A stretch of DNA of 64,000 nucleotides from Pseudanabaena galeata CCNP1313. GTDB lineage: Bacteria > Cyanobacteriota > Cyanobacteriia > Pseudanabaenales > Pseudanabaenaceae. The DNA lies in NCBI RefSeq assembly GCF_029910235.1, contig NZ_CP112874.1, positions 310,001 to 374,000 of the forward strand. The letters are read 5' to 3'. Both the position numbers and the translations under genes were made by a program. Below the pieces are notes generated by a model. The model saw only the letters and a program-made list of their open reading frames with translations, did no database searches and was not told the DNA's origin. The first letter of the stretch is position 1; the number at the start of each line of letters is the position of its first letter. This document shows positions 3,066-10,600 of this stretch, piece by piece.

Positions 3066-3725
3066 TTATTTTGCTCTTAGCTTGGTAATCTCTTTAGCAG
3101 GCGCATTAACCTGTTCTATCATTAAAGATTTACCTTCGAGAAATTGAAGAATTGTCGCTAGCTCTTCATTAGTCAGTTTAGCTCTACCAACTAAGATTAC
3201 CCTGTTAATAGAGGGGACTTCAGACATGTAAGTCCTGAATGATTTAGTAAGCTCATCTTTTTCGTCGGCGATAGCGAACACAGATTTTGCAGGCTTAATT
3301 ACCTTTTCTGCTAGACCTCCTGGGATCAAAGTTTTTGAAGGCTTTTCGATCTGGTCACTCATCTCTTCCATAGTGAGATTAGCTTGGAGATCAGGAATCT
3401 CTTTAGCATAACTAGGTAGTTGGATTAATCTATTAATTGGTGATACTTCTTCACCCTTCACATGAATAAAAATATTTTGAACCTTAGGATTGCTAACTTC
3501 CTTAGCAATCTCTCCTATGGACAAATCTAGCCTCTGCAAACGATCTAATAAGTTTGTCTCTGATTGAGTTATACCACTGATGTTATTTTGATTACTGATT
3601 TGGGTAACATTAGTACTAAGGTTACTAACAGTCGATAAAGTCATATTTTGAGCCGATGCTCTACTCGCAGATACTAAAATATACATAGCTATCAAGTAGC
3701 TAAAAGATGCTTTTTTAGTTAACAT
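3066..3725 (-). CDS. Exported protein of unknown function, first gene of a three-gene operon
   Basis: A 219-residue protein that I do not recognise. The N-terminus is a Sec signal peptide (KK, then a hydrophobic stretch, cleavage near ASAQ at residue 26). The mature part is rich in Asn, Ser and Leu, with predicted helical segments (LLDRLQRLDLSIGEIAKEV) and no cysteines. The C-terminal third (INRVILVGRAKLTNEELATILQFLEGKS) looks like a small alpha/beta unit. Its stop codon touches the start of the FAD oxidoreductase. A role as a periplasmic or cell-surface partner of the two downstream enzymes would be speculation. Confidence 0.6.
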   Translation of the reverse strand: MLTKKASFSYLIAMYILVSASRASAQNMTLSTVSNLSTNVTQISNQNNISGITQSETNLLDRLQRLDLSIGEIAKEVSNPKVQNIFIHVKGEEVSPINRLIQLPSYAKEIPDLQANLTMEEMSDQIEKPSKTLIPGGLAEKVIKPAKSVFAIADEKDELTKSFRTYMSEVPSINRVILVGRAKLTNEELATILQFLEGKSLMIEQVNAPAKEITKLRAK

Positions 3726-4021
3726 TTATTTGTCCATAGAAGCAGTTTATCTGAACATCCACTTGTCCAGATTTTCGCAGTTTTTAAATCAAACCAAAGA
3801 ATTGGCACAACTTACAATAAGTGCGCCTTAGCTCTTTACCCACCCGTTAGATAAAAATCTTCTAAACGCTGCAATACAATGGCTTAAAAAGCCTGTAGAT
3901 GTTTTAATTGAATAGAGAGATACTGCAAAGAGTTATGTATAAAATACATAAAAATAGTTATCAAACAACCTATAAACTAGATTGAATTTTTTGGTATTCC
4001 CACCCGTTTTTGAATGGTCAC

Positions 4022-4058
4022 GAATCTTAATTTATTGCTTTGCAATAAATTAAGATTC
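4022..4058. terminator. 17-bp perfect AT-rich hairpin
   Basis: The arms 4022-4038 and 4042-4058 are exactly complementary around a TTT loop. It lies about 15 nt after the second CCCACCCGTT motif and could end a short transcript starting near 3983. There is only a weak T-run behind it, so terminator function is an inference. Confidence 0.4.
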
Positions 4059-4773
4059 TATTTGATTCTGGCTAATTGTCTTTTAAAAAGAAAATAAAAT
4101 AAAAAGACAATCATATTTTGTGATGGAATATACACAACTGCCTAAATAAATAAGAGTCTCCTCCTTTATAATCTTTATTTCGCAATACCCACCCGTTAAA
4201 ACTTTACTTACTATGTAGCAAGCCATTATCAATTTATCATAGATTTTGAAAATAGCAACTACTTAGTTTATTTCAATCATTTAGATAATTGCCAAGGCAA
4301 TGGTTAGTCAAATCGCGAGGGGGTAATCCGCGCAATGATAGTAACTCCAGCCTAAAAAAAGTCGATGCTCTGTCCAACTACCATAGCTGTTCAGCATGGC
4401 ATCTTTGTCCATCCGTAAACCATCGGATCTATACAATTAAAATATTCATGTTTGAATGCTTTTTCTGATTTTTTATAATATATTTTGTGATACATTATAA
4501 AATATATTTTTGTTCAATTAATTAGCAAATTCGGGGGGGACTCGATTTTGTATAGATATTGCCATTCCCGTTAGGACAAAATCAAGAACCAAAGAAGAGT
4601 TGTGGCACTTTGCACCTCAACTCTCTTTTGAATTGTATGTCCTGATACACTTGGCTATTTCTATTCACCCAGATAGATAATAAAAATAACCTTGATACGA
4701 AGATGTTATAGCGATCGCCTAAAATCAGAATCCTCGAAAAAAGCAATTAGAATTTCTTAGTTTTTTGCGATTT

Positions 4774-4834
4774 AATAAAGAACCAGATTTTAGTGGCGCG
4801 GCGAAGCCGCGCCACTAAAATCTGGTTCTTTATT
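4774..4834. repeat. 28-bp perfect palindrome with 5-nt loop
   Basis: Arms 4774-4801 and 4807-4834 are fully complementary. The apex is GCGCGG-CGAAG-CCGCGC. It belongs to the genome-wide class of long intergenic palindromes whose outer arms are unique to the site. It directly abuts a family A element. Confidence 0.85.
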
Positions 4835-4836
4835 TT

Positions 4837-4990
4837 AACTGATGTTATGTGGAAGCTTCTAAGCCCCTCACCCCTAGCCCCTAGCCCAAAGGGAGAGGGG
4901 AACAAGAATTCTCTGGGTTTTGCTCCCCCTCTCCTAGAGAGGAGAGGGGGCTGGGGGGTGAGGGAAATCTTCATTTCACATAGCATCAGT
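4837..4990. repeat. Family A miniature inverted-repeat element
   Basis: The ends are inverted: AACTGATGTTATGTGGAAG on the left and TTTCACATAGCATCAGT on the right. The interior is C-rich then G-rich (CCCCTCACCCCTAGCCCC and its complement near GGGGGGTGAGGG). A second full copy is at 13592-13745, and right-end pieces are at 1-40 and 16661-16685. It codes for nothing, so it is a MITE-like element. Confidence 0.75.
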
Positions 4991-5149
4991 AATAATATCT
5001 ACAAAAAGACAATTATCTGTTCCTTTAGTTCTTCCTAAGCAATACTTATCTCCAAAATCCGAATAAATCTTATAGATCTCTTGCAAATTGGAATTACTTG
5101 AAGTATATTAATCGTGGGAATAGGAAATAAACTTAAAGTGCTATAGCTA

Positions 5150-5521
5150 ATGAAAAATGTCAAACAAGCTACAAAGCTCAGCAAATCTCAGAATGGAAAA
5201 ACTATCCAACTTTTTATAGTATTAATTATATTGACAATTGGAGAATCCAAAATCTTTTCTTCACTAGTACTAGCACAAAGCAATGCTGTTGGTCTTGCTA
5301 TCTCAGAAAGTAATAAGGTAGCCTCAGCTACAGCTACCTATGAAGATTCTGGAAATCCAAATGTGAAAATTAATGCTACATCTAATGATGTGAAAATTAA
5401 TATTACGCCTAATGATACCTCTACTAAAGATTTGACAATTAACAATAATGATTTGTTATTTGAGGATGATCTAATAGAAACAGATACTTCTTTAATTGAT
5501 TTATTAGTTGATTTAGATTAG
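5150..5521 (+). CDS. Small exported acidic protein of unknown function
   Basis: A 123-residue protein I do not recognise. A basic start (KNVKQATKLSKSQNGK) precedes a hydrophobic stretch (IQLFIVLIILTIGES) and a likely signal peptidase site around VLAQS, residue 42. The mature part is rich in Asn, Thr and Asp with an imperfect internal repeat (NVKINATSNDVKINITPND) and ends in a strongly acidic tail (DDLIETDTSLIDLLVDLD). The first ATG is used. It stands alone between repeats, 142 bp ahead of the next gene. An exported, possibly calcium-binding or adhesive role is only a guess. Confidence 0.5.
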   Translation: MKNVKQATKLSKSQNGKTIQLFIVLIILTIGESKIFSSLVLAQSNAVGLAISESNKVASATATYEDSGNPNVKINATSNDVKINITPNDTSTKDLTINNNDLLFEDDLIETDTSLIDLLVDLD

Positions 5522-5669
5522 GAAATCCTCTTAGAGTCTGATTTTTAAATATAAATCTTTCTCAGTATATTTCATGTCATTGATAACAGGTTGCTTAGAA
5601 AAACTAAGTAACGAAAGAAACATTTTAAACAGCAAAATATAAATTTTCAACTCCCCTGCTATATTGCTT

Positions 5670-6206
5670 ATGGATAATATATCTGAAACAGAGTTATTTA
5701 CTATAGAGGTAGAATACGATAATGAAAATTTATCGATTGATATCTACAACTCCATAATTAAAACTGTTACTGAATTTAATGGTTTGCAACTGCTCCTCAT
5801 TTCTGGAGATGGTCAATTGCCTATAAAAGAAAGAAATATGTCAGATTCTCCACTATCTATATCATATGTATTGAGTTGTAAGAATCAAGTTTCTAAGCTA
5901 ATTGCGGCTGGTGAATATAGCTCAGCATTTCTATCCCTATGGCAATTTGCTGAGCATTTAATGGAAAGACTCACAAAACAAACACCGATACCAACAGAGA
6001 GTGTATCGAGTATTTTGATGATTCATCATCTCTATCAACAGTCTATAATCTCTCTGGAACAATTTGAAATTGCGATCCATCTAAATTCCCTTCAGGATAG
6101 ATTATCTAAGAAATATTCTAAAAATCTAGATATAAAACAAGACATAGATAAACTATGGGATCTAGTCGATGATTTTATTGCCTTAGAAGTTCGAGGCTAT
6201 CCATAG
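5670..6206 (+). CDS. Hypothetical cytoplasmic protein, helical C-terminal half
   Basis: About 178 residues from the ATG at 5670; a TTG at 5664 in the same frame is a less likely start. The N-terminal half is mixed alpha/beta with an acidic strand region (IEVEYDNENLSIDIYNSI, QLLLISGDGQ). The C-terminal half from residue 75 is all helical (LIAAGEYSSAFLSLWQFAEHLMERL). That amphipathic pattern resembles HEPN or DUF4145-type helical bundles, but the RxxxxH motif of active HEPN RNases is absent. No partner gene is adjacent. I cannot assign a function. Confidence 0.55.
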   Translation: MDNISETELFTIEVEYDNENLSIDIYNSIIKTVTEFNGLQLLLISGDGQLPIKERNMSDSPLSISYVLSCKNQVSKLIAAGEYSSAFLSLWQFAEHLMERLTKQTPIPTESVSSILMIHHLYQQSIISLEQFEIAIHLNSLQDRLSKKYSKNLDIKQDIDKLWDLVDDFIALEVRGYP

Positions 6207-6240
6207 AAATATAGAAAGCCTAAAATGAAGATGTGTAAGA

Positions 6241-6345
6241 AACCATTTAAGAATTACTTGCTGTGGTCAAAAGTTCTATGAGATCCCCCTCAATCCCCCT
6301 TAAAAAGAGAATTTGAATTCTCCCCCCTTTTTAAGGGGGGCTGGG
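6241..6345. repeat. Family F repeat copy
   Basis: This resembles bases 147-243: a shared start (TTTAAGAATTA, then CTGYGGT, AAAAGT) leads into C-rich and G-rich palindromic sequence (CCCCCTTTTTAAGGGGG). It runs directly into the remnant gene at 6341, so its insertion may have removed that gene's front. Confidence 0.5.
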
Positions 6346-6538
6346 ATCGAAACTGATTCAAGATGTACTAACCCCAGAACAACAAGCAACGTTTACTGCG
6401 GAATTAAAAAAGGGCGATCGCATTGCTGCTTGGCGACCAATGAACCTCTCGAAAGCACAAAGGGAAATCATCATTGCCATCGATAAGAGTGCTAGAGAGG
6501 AAACCTTAGAGATTCTGACTGCTAGTATTCCGAAATGA
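6341..6538 (+). pseudogene. C-terminal remnant of a Spy/CpxP-like periplasmic protein
   Basis: An open frame of about 65 codons ends at TGA 6536-6538 and has no start; an in-frame stop lies at 6332 inside the family F repeat. The translation contains LTPEQQATFTAELKKGDRI and, later, LSKAQREIIIAIDKS. Such LTPEQ...F helices are typical of the Spy/CpxP-like proteins common in cyanobacteria. The codon pattern, including a GCGATCGC across Asp-Arg, looks like former coding sequence. It is most simply a gene whose 5' part was lost when the repeat inserted. A frame that open could also arise by chance. Confidence 0.45.
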
Positions 6539-6752
6539 CTCTTGTTAATAACTCCAAACATTTAATTGGCAAAGCTATATAAATCGCTTTCAAACTCCCG
6601 TCAAAATCAATCTCAAGATCTACTAACTCTCCTGGGATTATTGGCATCAAACTGCGATAAATACTGGCAGAAAATTTATAAACTTTACCGCATTTAGTGC
6701 GAACATAGCCTTGCTGAGATTCGATACTATACTGAACAATTCTACCTTCCAT
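6522..6752 (-). CDS. Small cold-shock-like (OB-fold) protein
   Basis: About 76 residues from the ATG at 6752, which has GGAG upstream; a TTG two codons earlier is less likely. The pattern MEGRIVQYSIESQQGYVRTK, then KVYKFSASIYRS, GELVDLEIDFDGSLKAIY matches the strand order of a cold-shock domain (short turn, glycine-aromatic motif, 'G..V.F.id' strand). The RNP motifs of true CspA proteins are not conserved, so nucleic-acid binding is uncertain. Its 3' end overlaps the remnant gene on the other strand by 17 bp. Confidence 0.55.
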   Translation of the reverse strand: MEGRIVQYSIESQQGYVRTKCGKVYKFSASIYRSLMPIIPGELVDLEIDFDGSLKAIYIALPIKCLELLTRVISEY

Positions 6753-6758
6753 ATCCAA

Positions 6759-7654
6759 ATCTCCGAATTAAGATATTATCCTTATATAATTGACAACATA
6801 AAGTTTATTAGATTTTCTTTTATCTATTTCTCAATTGAGATTTTCTTAGCTATTGAATTTCGCCATTAGCCCTAGACAATATTTTGACTAACTCTCATCT
6901 TAATTTTACTTTGGGTTATTTCTAAAGATAGTGCTTACCAAAAAAAACAGTAGCGCCCTAGATTCAAAGTTGTAAGCGGAAAGTTATACATTTGGGATAT
7001 CTAAGGCAATCACGGCTATAACAAGTTACGCAACAGTGAAAGACTCTGTAACAATCGTAAACATGATTTTTTGTTAATAAAAAATAACTGCTAAAAATAA
7101 ATAAGTTTATACGTCCCTATTCCTAAGAAAAGTGACGCAAAACAAAAATAAATTAACAGAGTAATGACAATTTTAATAAATACAGCACTCTTTTAATAAG
7201 GTGTCCCCACCCGTAGGATAAACTTTCTAACTTTGTTAAGTAAGTATTTCTACAGTTCTCAACATGTAGCAAGTTTTGCATTATTTGAATTGTATTCCTA
7301 TTCCCAGAAGCAAGTTTAGCATGAATATTTGAATTACACAACCTTCTAATTCAAATATTTTCGCAATGCTTAGCTTTACTAGAAAAAGCCACAGGGTTTT
7401 CTTCCATTATCAAAGATCATTGTCTTTTGGAATGTTGAAGCCACAGGCTCAAATAGTTTTATGGTCACTCTGTTTATTTCTGCCATTGTTCGGATCTCTA
7501 TGCGTTGCATTTCATCCTTGAACTGGCTGCGAAATTATTGTATGTGGTAAAGGCAAGAATTGAGTAGCGGCGTGGAGCGCCACCAACCAATTCTTGCCTT
7601 TACCACATACAACAGCGATCCATTGCGAGGTTTGGGTAAAATAGCTAAAACCCC
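6759..7654. other. Gene-free leader of the kinase gene
   Basis: No gene is supported. A fourth CCCACCCGT is at 7206-7214, just after TAATAA (7194-7199). Some 110 nt later is a 13-bp AT-rich hairpin around 7323-7358 followed by TTTTC. The third and fourth motif units also share TGTAGCAAG further downstream. Arms of 25 bp at 7538-7562 and 7588-7612 form a perfect palindrome with an imperfect GGCG-rich apex, 42 bp before the kinase start. Confidence 0.5.
7538..7612. repeat. 25-bp perfect palindrome upstream of the hybrid kinase
   Basis: Arms 7538-7562 and 7588-7612 are exactly complementary. The 25-nt centre contains GCGGCGTGGAGCGCC, an imperfect version of the usual GGCG apex. In RNA it would form a large hairpin in the kinase leader or terminate upstream transcripts. 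Confidence 0.8.
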
Positions 7655-10600
7655 ATGGGAGCTTTCAGTAGAAATAATGCAATGAGCGATCGCCAATCAT
7701 CTCCTAATCCTTCTAAATCCCGAAAATTACCACTTAAATTCATTCTGATTGGTCAGTTTGTGATCTTGATCGTTGGTATATCAGGATTAATGGCATGGTT
7801 ATCTTGGCAAAGTGAGCAGAAGATGATCGCCAACTTAGTCGGAAAACTACAAAATGAAGTTAGCGATCGCATCAAGCAAAAGCTCTCTTCTTATCTGGAG
7901 ACTCCCCACCTAATCAATAAAATTAATGCCGATGCAGTGCGGCAAGGAACATTAAAAACCCAAGGCAAAGCTAGTGAGATTTATCTCTGGCAACAGATTC
8001 AAAATTTTCCTACGGTTTCTTGGATCTATTATGGAGGTGAAAAGGCAGGAGGATTTGTGGGAATTACTCGCCTAGACAAACAGCAAAATCCCACGCAGTC
8101 TTTCCAATTAGCGATCAATGTTGGCGGATTTCGGCGTTACTATTACAACCTAGACGCACAGGGAAATCGTCGTGAACTTAGGGGGAAGTCAGAGTTCTAT
8201 GATGCCCGTCAACGCCCTTGGTATCAAGCTGCTTTGCAAACAGATCAGCCTATTTGGAGTCCAATTTATCAAGATTCCACTTTGCCTGAGCAAGTGATTA
8301 CAGCGAGTCTACCTGTATATAATGCTGATGGAAAGAGAATAGGTGTCTTAGGAGCGGATCTGTCTCTAGGAGATATTAGCCAGTTTTTAGATGGATTACA
8401 AATTGGCAAGTCGGGAGAAGCATTTATTCTAGAACCTTCAGGATTATTGGTAGCTAGCTCGAATGGAGAAAAGCCCTATGAACCTAGCAGTGATCCACAA
8501 AAATTACAGAGATTGCCTGTTAAGAATATTAAGCAACCAATGATTCGAGATGCGGTGGGGTATCTAGAGAAACAAATTGGAAGCTTAGATAACATCAGCT
8601 CTGAACAGAATTTTAAGTTTTCTACTGAGGGGAAAAATATTTTTTTTAAGGTGTTACCCTACCGAGATGAGCGCGGGATTAACTGGTTAATTGCCGTGGT
8701 AATGCCCGAATCTGACTTTATGGAACAAATTGATATCAAGCGACAAAACACAATTTTGCTCGTTTGTCTATCACTAGCGGGTGCGATCGCTTTAGGTGTT
8801 TTGACGACTCAATATATTAATAAATCATTACGCCGTTTAACTTTGGCAAGCCAAGCCTTGGCAAATGGAGAATTAGATCGAGAAGTTCCCTCAGCAGCCA
8901 TTACTGAATTGAATATTCTCTCGCAATCCTTTAATCAAATGGCGACACAGTTAAAACAGTCTTTTGCGGAGTTTGGCAAGATTAATGAAAACTTGGAATT
9001 GCGAATTCAAGATAGAGTAAAAGAATTACAGGAATCTGAAAATAAGTTTAGAAATTTAGTGTCCAATTTTTCAGGGCTTGTCTATCGTTGTAATTGCGAT
9101 CGCGATTGGTCTATGGAATTCATTGGCGGTGCAGTTACAGAGCTAACAGGCTATCTTGCGGAAGAATTCATTGCTAATCAAGTTCGTAGTTGGACAAGTA
9201 TTATTCATCCTGAAGATCGAGAAACTGTAAAAAGAGTTATCAATGAAAGTCTAACTTGTCACGAACCCTTTATTTTAGAATATCGAATTATTGATTCTCA
9301 AGGTACTATTCGCTGGCTATATGAAAAAGGTCAGGGAATATTTACAGAAGAGGATCAATTGTTGTGGATTGATGGTGCGATTTTTGATATTAGCGATCGC
9401 AAACAAGTCGAATCAGAGCTTTTAGAACGTGTGCATTTATCAATTTTGATGGCTGAAGTTGGCTCTGCATCTACACAGCTAAATACCTTAGAAGAAGTTC
9501 TCCAAGCCTTTGTCGAATCCCTATGGCGACATATGAACATCTCTTTTGTGCAGATCTGGACAATCAATGCTTTTGGCGATGACTTAAATTTACAAGTCAG
9601 CACAGGAAACTATAACAAATCAGATAGCGATCGTCTCAGTAATCTCATCAAAAGAGAGCGGATATGGTCAGTTACTCAAGGAAGATTTCAGCCGCTTTTA
9701 ACCGATCAAATTGTGGCAGATTTAAGCGAATCCGATCGATTGTGGTTGCAAGAGCAAGGAATTGTTTCGTTGGTAGGACATCCACTAATTGTCAAAGGCA
9801 AAGTCATCGGAGTGATCCTGATGATTTCTCAGTTTCACTTAGACATGGATGTCCAGAATATCGACTTGATCGCCAATGCGATCGCCATAGGTATTGATCA
9901 TAAACAATCAGAAGAGCGATTGAGAGTGACCAATGCCGAAATGAAAGCTTTATTTGCGGCGATGGATGAAGTGATCTTAGTCCGCGATCGCATGGGACGC
10001 GTACTCAAAATCCCTCAAACCCGCAGACAATCAGTTTTTCTAGATGATAGTAAGGTAATAGGCAGACTCCCTTCAGAATTATTTTCCCCTGAGCAAGCTA
10101 GCCTCTTCTCTGGTTATATACAGCATGTTTTAGAAACCCAACAAGCTCTAAATGTTGAGTATCTGCTCTCCCTCACCGATCAACCGATTTGGTGGAATGC
10201 CAGCATCTCTCCCATTGATACAGAGACCGTGGTTTGGGTCGCTCGCGATATTACAGAGAGCAAAAAAGTCGAACAACAACTCAACCAAGCAAAACAGGCT
10301 GCCGAGGCTGCTAGCAAAGCCAAAGGTCAATTTTTGGCAAGTATGAGCCATGAACTCCGAACACCGTTAAACGCGATTTTAGGATTTGCTCAATTAATGG
10401 TGCGTGACACATCACTCAAAGACAATCATCGCTCCTATCTCAAAATCATTCATGACAGTGGCGAACATCTACTGGAATTAATTAATGATGTTTTAGATAT
10501 GTCAAAAATCGAATCAGGAAGGATTACGCTCAACATCACTAGCTTTGATCTGTATCATCTCCTCGATACCTTGGAAAAAATGTTTCGCCTTAAGGTTAAT

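Follow-up and report, generated by a model that had tools for sequence, protein, structure and literature searches.

Tandem sibling small RNAs (sRNAs) with individual promoters are in use in cyanobacteria, as NsiR1 of Nostoc sp. PCC 7120 shows (PMC9045159). NsiR1, an RNA of about 60 nucleotides (nt), is encoded by 12 copies in tandem, seven of them identical and five only somewhat diverged; they are individually driven by DIF1 promoters, and hetF lies downstream of the array (PMC9045159). LhrC1-5 of Listeria are multicopy sRNAs, five almost identical copies of 111-114 nt with three motif sites per RNA, in which a C-rich UCCC motif pairs with mRNA at the Shine-Dalgarno site; they bind Hfq, have known targets and depend for their expression on a two-component system (PMC4132741). 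Yfr1 has a C-rich unpaired segment, ACUCCUCACAC, between two stem-loops, together with a GC-rich terminator, and occurs across cyanobacterial lineages (PMC2190773). These accounts, and the comparisons made with them below, follow the parts of the cited papers available to us. The locus considered here lies in a 64,000-nt stretch (the window, C1:310001-374000) of the Pseudanabaena galeata CCNP1313 genome, which comprises six contigs and 5.84 Mb. There, positions 3813-4283, with an outlier at 7192-7369, may form an array of small RNA genes, arranged in tandem and each standing on its own, a reading that we judge to be evenly poised.

Four units with a C-rich 9-mer

The 9-mer CCCACCCGT occurs at 3839, 3999, 4188 and 7206 of the window, always on the plus strand, and these are its only exact copies there on either strand. 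The initial annotation, which had given CCCACCCGTT at the first three positions and CCCACCCGT at the fourth, was exact in this. Four copies compare with 0.09 expected, and none of 100 shuffles reached four. In random sequences modelled after the 2,635 non-coding bases around the sites (300 each at orders 1, 2 and 3), this 9-mer never appeared at orders 1 and 2 and appeared at most once at order 3 (in 11 of 300). The cluster is real and statistically solid, and it is the cluster that is unusual, not the genome-wide frequency of the 9-mer: the genome holds 21 copies against 34 of a reversed control. The annotation had itself named an equal frequency of the motif inside genes as evidence against an RNA family. 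Taken literally, this counts against the family, as there is no non-coding enrichment and 16 of the 21 copies lie inside stop-free frames of at least 100 codons; on the other side, all five copies outside such frames belong to this array family, four being those of the window and the fifth lying at C2:213574 in a second, diverged array.

All four units are on the plus strand. Unit c1 (3813-3856) has a -10-like TACAAT at 3813-3818 and, 20 nt on, CCCACCCGTT at 3839-3848, with no clear terminator. Unit A (3970-4068) has the -10-like CTATAAACTAG (TATAAA at 3971-3976), then 22 nt, CCCACCCGTT at 3999-4008 and, in its 3' part, a 17-bp hairpin at 4022-4058 followed by a weak T-tract. Unit B (4167-4283) has TATAAT at 4167-4172, then 15 nt, CCCACCCGTT at 4188-4197 and a conserved tail at about 4246-4283. 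Unit c4 (7192-7369) has the overlapping boxes TTTAAT (7192-7197) and TAATAA (7194-7199), CCCACCCGT at 7206-7214 and an AT-rich hairpin at about 7319-7369. A spacing of 7-25 nt between box and motif, as first described, holds for c1, A and B and fails for the TAATAA of c4 (6 nt). The best upstream match to TATAAT is 5, 5, 6 and 5 of 6 for c1, A, B and c4, the box of c4 being TTTAAT at 7192; TAATAA matches at only 3 of 6. Matches of 5/6 are reached at 528 of 2,512 background positions (21%). A single box means little, and the four together have a probability of about 0.002 if independent. The string TGTAGCAAG is, as had been noted, common to the third and fourth units. Units A and B are enclosed by two AT-rich inverted pairs (3899-3916 with 4428-4445, 89%; 3904-3922 with 4503-4521, 79%), which may be chance.

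The pattern TATA-N6-34-CCCACCCG gave 19 matches in the genome, compared with 12 for its reversed control. Eleven belong to a repeated element, three are units A and B and unit A of the second array, and the other five lie in long frames except that at C1:3992027 (L193). The repeated element is seen on C1, C3 and C4 as 11 identical stretches with CCCACCCG in a frame (e.g. C1:1499234) labelled transposase-like from a reading of the frame, without a family search. On C2 near 73098-73122 (1510-1550 of L179), CCCACCCG is part of a hairpin with a T-run after it, in the gap between divergent genes for a ParA-type ATPase and an open reading frame (ORF) with a weak zinc-ribbon match; this hairpin is possibly another C-rich RNA.

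For the array we infer transcription, RNA ends and base pairing as follows. Each unit would have its own short promoter with a -10 box, presumably activator-dependent since no -35 element is seen, and its RNA would begin some 7 nt past the box. The C-rich CCCACCCGU segment, predicted to be largely unpaired, would fall within about the first 25 nt of each RNA. Its nature and position suggest base pairing, so that it may be the region acting on G-rich stretches of other RNAs. The RNA of unit A would end at the AT-rich hairpin.

Five places in one genus

The array, as c1-A-B or A-B, is present at five places in three of 145 genomes (P. galeata included), all of one genus: contigs C1 and C2 of P. 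galeata, contigs C40 and C47 of genome G012, and contig C51 of genome G019. A DNA search of 58 genomes, P. galeata among them, gave a 94% identical ortholog (G012 C40) and the diverged copies on G012 C47 and P. galeata C2; the G019 copy was found by a covariance model of unit A built from the other four (E 5.6e-7). A sequence model of unit B, run with stricter filters over the 145 genomes, returned the five copies at E 3e-20 or better, as it must by construction, having been built from all five. Unit A is followed by unit B at every place. Unit c1 precedes them in P. galeata C1, in G012 C40 and, by multiple alignment only, in G019, where it is a diverged counterpart with an eroded motif. Relatives of c4 were found in none of 26 genomes of the genus (P. 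galeata included), where only the adjacent 92-nt repeat and three short weak stretches matched.

Other matches were slight. Those of the unit-B model in G009, G024 and G015 C47 were weak and were dropped on reading, those in G016 C14 and G015 C225 hold only part of the unit-B tail, and one in G076 was left out of the reading. Weak matches of the unit-A model (L081-L087 and L105) were judged on reading to be mainly hairpin likeness and were also dropped; among the matches of that model listed, 30 loci included none but the known array copies with the 9-mer within one mismatch at the match. A pattern scan of genome contigs pointed to two contigs of Phormidium tenue FACHB-1050 and to a Tuberibacillus match that was taken, unread, as chance. 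The plasmid collection gave no match in a distant DNA search with two of the copies, and viral contigs gave none to one exact pattern.

Comparison of the diverged copies (P. galeata C1 and C2 and G012 C47) shows where the units are kept. In unit A the -10 box has an identity of 0.88 and the motif 0.93, against 0.48-0.67 for other segments; in unit B the box has 0.89 and the motif 0.78, against 0.58-0.67 for the rest. The boxes stand at 0.88 (A) and 0.83 (B) with G019 added. Spacing from box to motif is steady for each type of unit, 21-22 nt in A and 14-15 nt in B, and unit A retains the 9-mer unchanged in P. galeata C1 and C2 and in G012 C40. The alignments thus point to boxes that are firmly conserved and a motif that is conserved only in part.

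Both hairpins reported at the outset are present. That of unit A (4022-4058) is a perfect 17-bp stem and the unit folds with a z-score of -5.9, its counterparts in G012 C40 and C47 having -3.4 and -3.7; that near 7323-7358 gives -2.4 for 7230-7370. Unit B of P. galeata C2 has a very strong hairpin (-7.5). On a five-row alignment, the A hairpin pairs 82.4% of 85 cells, compared with 25.9-48.2% when slid, and four of its 17 pairs are changed on both sides, one of these in two rows, which no more than suggests compensatory change. A consensus scan found 11 terminator-like sites against 1.8 in shuffles, the A hairpin and a G-rich hairpin downstream of the array among them. A terminator after the units in general, as first proposed, is not supported: it recurs for A alone, with a weak T-tract, and two of the five A copies fold like shuffles.

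No single gene lies downstream of all five copies. At three of the places (P. galeata C1, G012 C40 and G019) the array is followed by what remains of the C-terminal end of a gene (window positions about 4712-4789), a full-length relative of which, in G015, matches Pfam Glyco_transf_41 (8.6e-10). The G-rich hairpin is common to P. galeata C1 and C2, as is a block at about 5001-5128. The array on P. galeata C2 leads into a 95-aa ORF, the first 65 residues of which match nothing in 25 other genomes of the genus, and has a CBS-PAS sensor-like ORF beside it; that on G012 C47 leads into an acyltransferase-like fragment (weak). The array was considered as the leader of a GT41-type gene and rejected, as the full-length relatives in G015 and G011 have neither an array nor the motif within one mismatch upstream (2.9 kb being examined in G015; four other relatives are without full upstream regions). 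With no common downstream gene and with array-free full-length relatives, the array is unlikely to be a leader belonging to one conserved gene, and RNA genes standing on their own would fit best. The tandem sRNA family originally suggested is supported in part, by promoter-like units with a C-rich segment at five places, conserved boxes, the A hairpin and the lack of a common downstream gene. Full conservation of the C-rich segment is not supported: it is eroded in the three G019 units and changed in unit B of G012 C40, G012 C47 and P. galeata C2.

Objections and rival explanations

A number of observations weigh against RNA genes, and the erosion in G019 is a serious caution. There all three motifs have decayed while the -10 boxes remain, the aligned places reading CCCCCTATG in A, CCCACTCCC in B and an unrelated string in c1, and with G019 added the identity of the motif falls to 0.72 (A) and 0.67 (B). 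Elsewhere unit A of G012 C47 reads TCCACCCGT, and unit B reads CCCACTCGT in G012 C40, CCCTCCCGT in G012 C47 and TCCTCCCAT in P. galeata C2. Between P. galeata C1 and G012 C40, the stretches from box to motif have 4 changes in 123 positions compared with 48 in 876 overall, no clear deficit. The array was found in only three of the genomes of its genus. Within the window, the four units are unalike outside the 9-mer, none of 24 tests going beyond chance (c1 with c4, 8/20 downstream, p 0.25; A with B, 10/20 upstream, p 0.047; B with c4, local score, p 0.07); they may be either old duplications that keep little but the motif, or unrelated promoters in which the motif arose. A consensus promoter scan gave 14 sites against 17.5 in shuffles, with no sigma-70 promoter at any unit, and no -35 element was found at the units. 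With any GC-rich 9-mer (7 of 9) allowed, four copies are reached in 0, 11 and 48 of 300 modelled sequences at orders 1, 2 and 3, high-order models of so short a text reproducing pieces of that text.

The folds add to these objections. Unit A of P. galeata C2 (z 0.3) and of G019 (z 0.1) folds no better than shuffles, nor do c1 and B of P. galeata C1 (-0.5 and -1.3); unit B of the remaining three copies has no stable fold (-1.0, -0.4 and 0.5), and c1, B and c4 have no conserved terminator. The covariation test of the A hairpin used a structure derived from one row of the alignment, and of 500 column shuffles, 105 attain four two-sided pairs and 42 the covariation score.

The search for targets was likewise unfavourable. 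It took the 8-nt perfect complement of the motif before ATG (CGGGTGGG-N0-16-ATG) in the P. galeata genome, leaving aside shorter or imperfect pairing and GTG or TTG starts, and gave 36 matches against 27 of a reversed control, 11 of the 36 from one repeated element. None of the 30 of these 36 matches that were read was judged a gene start, so the suggested pairing with G-rich Shine-Dalgarno regions found no backing. Most frames from the matched ATGs are shorter than 45 aa. Individual candidates were rejected where the frame continues upstream (L153, L162, L163 and L171), where the ATG abuts the motif (L158) or where the 450-codon frame of site L008 runs on the opposite strand (L166). The leader of the 123-aa ORF at 5150 has stretches complementary to unit A and to DNA after c4; it was dropped as a target because such matches are not rare in 3.9 kb and the aligned G012 leader is without them.

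Two rivals survive about equally well, both of them unlikely in our judgement yet deserving real weight. The first is that the 9-mer is a DNA site at which a local regulator, e.g. the response regulator of a nearby kinase, acts on several short promoters, the RNA being inert. Such a site would suit units that share only the 9-mer and a -10-like box, with the motif in one orientation downstream of the box, and sensors are at hand in the histidine kinase gene after c4 and the CBS-PAS sensor-like ORF beside the C2 array. It fits less well with a distance from box to motif that varies from 8 to 22 nt, with a motif that is not palindromic and with the 21 genome copies, among which the frame test gives no further non-coding one; the A hairpin is left unexplained.

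The second, which we rate no higher and no lower, sees in the array the promoters and leader of surface or glycosylation genes that have themselves been lost, a 5' region in decay that has persisted by chance. Gene remnants do lie nearby, in the form of a 219-aa TPS/POTRA-like ORF and the Glyco_transf_41-related remnant common to three copies, the weak acyltransferase-like fragment follows the G012 C47 copy, and the motifs of G019 are eroded. However, in the stretches read from P. galeata C2 and G012 C47 there is no Glyco_transf_41-related remnant, no array lies upstream of the full-length relatives in G015 (over 2.9 kb) and G011, and in three copies conservation is higher in the boxes and motifs than around them.

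It seems improbable that the array belongs to a mobile or repeated element of small size, the motif being carried by copying. Two unlinked copies with differing flanks in each of P. galeata and G012 would suit it, as would the AT-rich inverted pairs that bracket units A and B on C1, but A, B and c1 are not copies of one another and only two full copies per genome were found, no search having been aimed at element ends or target duplications; there was no plasmid match for the two copies searched and no viral-contig match for the one exact pattern, the phage collection not being searched. A chance cluster of the 9-mer in AT-rich DNA, for which the lack of genome-wide enrichment (21 against 34) and the order-3 models (48 of 300) might be cited, can be set aside as exceedingly improbable given 4 copies against 0.09 expected, never more than one copy of this 9-mer in 900 modelled sequences and a motif kept in diverged paralogs.

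Neighbourhood, G-run hairpin and known families

The array lies in a stretch without a convincing gene (3726-5149), adjoined by the 219-aa ORF on the minus strand (3066-3725) and followed by small ORFs at 5150, 5664 and 6522 and, downstream of c4, by a large gene at 7655 for a Cache-HAMP-PAS-GAF histidine kinase; a DAO oxidoreductase is a further neighbour. The 219-aa ORF resembles a deletion fusion of a TPS-like N-terminus with a POTRA-like piece. Its residues 1-104 are matched by large TPS-like proteins at their N-termini, and its residues 151-216 by ORFs of 552-562 aa, which sit 2.5-4.1 kb from TPS-like genes in G008, G017 and G019; its Pfam matches to TPS and POTRA_2 are below cut-off. Two dispersed repeats lie in the vicinity: 4833-4990 is an intergenic repeat with about 37 other places in the genome among 61 rows (40 of 316 candidates scored), and 7389-7480 is a 92-nt repeat with nine other copies in the genome, 80-83% identical, and matches in 13 of 25 other genomes of the genus.

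Both P. galeata arrays are followed, about 210-330 nt downstream of the unit-B motif, by a G-run hairpin, at 4525-4551 of the window (plus strand, seven G across stem and loop) and at C2:213899-213920. It folds with a z-score of -4.5 alone and -0.3 in a 71-nt context. The hairpin, TTCGGGGGNGACTCGATTTTGT, is also present with two mismatches and without an array at G012 C45:187153-187174, its closing pair varying between G-U, A-U and G-C from place to place; neither G012 C47 nor G019 gave a match when up to three mismatches were allowed. It is possibly a terminator, a decoy or a target. The G run CGGGGGGGA is complementary to UCCCACCCG at 8 of 9 positions, with a central A-G mismatch, and the C2 hairpin at 7 of 9. 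A self-contained RNA circuit, in which sibling sRNAs that diverge from one another and pair through a UCCCACCCG segment (as in A) would be joined by the linked G-run hairpin as decoy or target, is a long shot. Were it true, pairing segments would evolve fast along with their targets, which would explain the changed motifs of G019.

Searches for known families were negative. The Rfam scan of the whole window gave two tRNAs only at the gathering threshold, and the 21 matches of a permissive scan of 3700-7500 were all below gathering scores and were disregarded. The view that Yfr1 is not matched was borne out, with no Rfam match at threshold and with units that carry CCCACCCGT and lack the ACUCCUCACAC undecamer. 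Among the papers listed by a literature search on the motif, none was by its title on a cyanobacterial RNA.

As far as the parts of the papers available to us describe them, the three known systems compare with the locus as follows. Like Yfr1, it would place a C-rich segment, predicted to be unpaired, in a short cyanobacterial RNA; unlike Yfr1, the motif is CCCACCCGU, again with no Rfam match at threshold. The likeness to LhrC is in multiple units with a C-rich motif, known here from DNA, and the difference is in pairing at ribosome-binding sites, seen in none of the 30 of 36 matches read. Set beside NsiR1, the locus has tandem units with conserved -10-like boxes, but these units have only the 9-mer and the box in common, with no further repeat similarity. 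By the criteria applied it would belong to neither NsiR1 nor LhrC. The locus is plausible as a candidate sRNA array confined to one genus, of a general kind already known from tandem sibling sRNAs such as NsiR1. If transcribed, it would be a further case of tandem sibling sRNAs in a cyanobacterium, one in which little beyond the putative pairing segment and the box is alike, and hence a natural case for studying how sibling sRNAs drift apart and gain separate targets.

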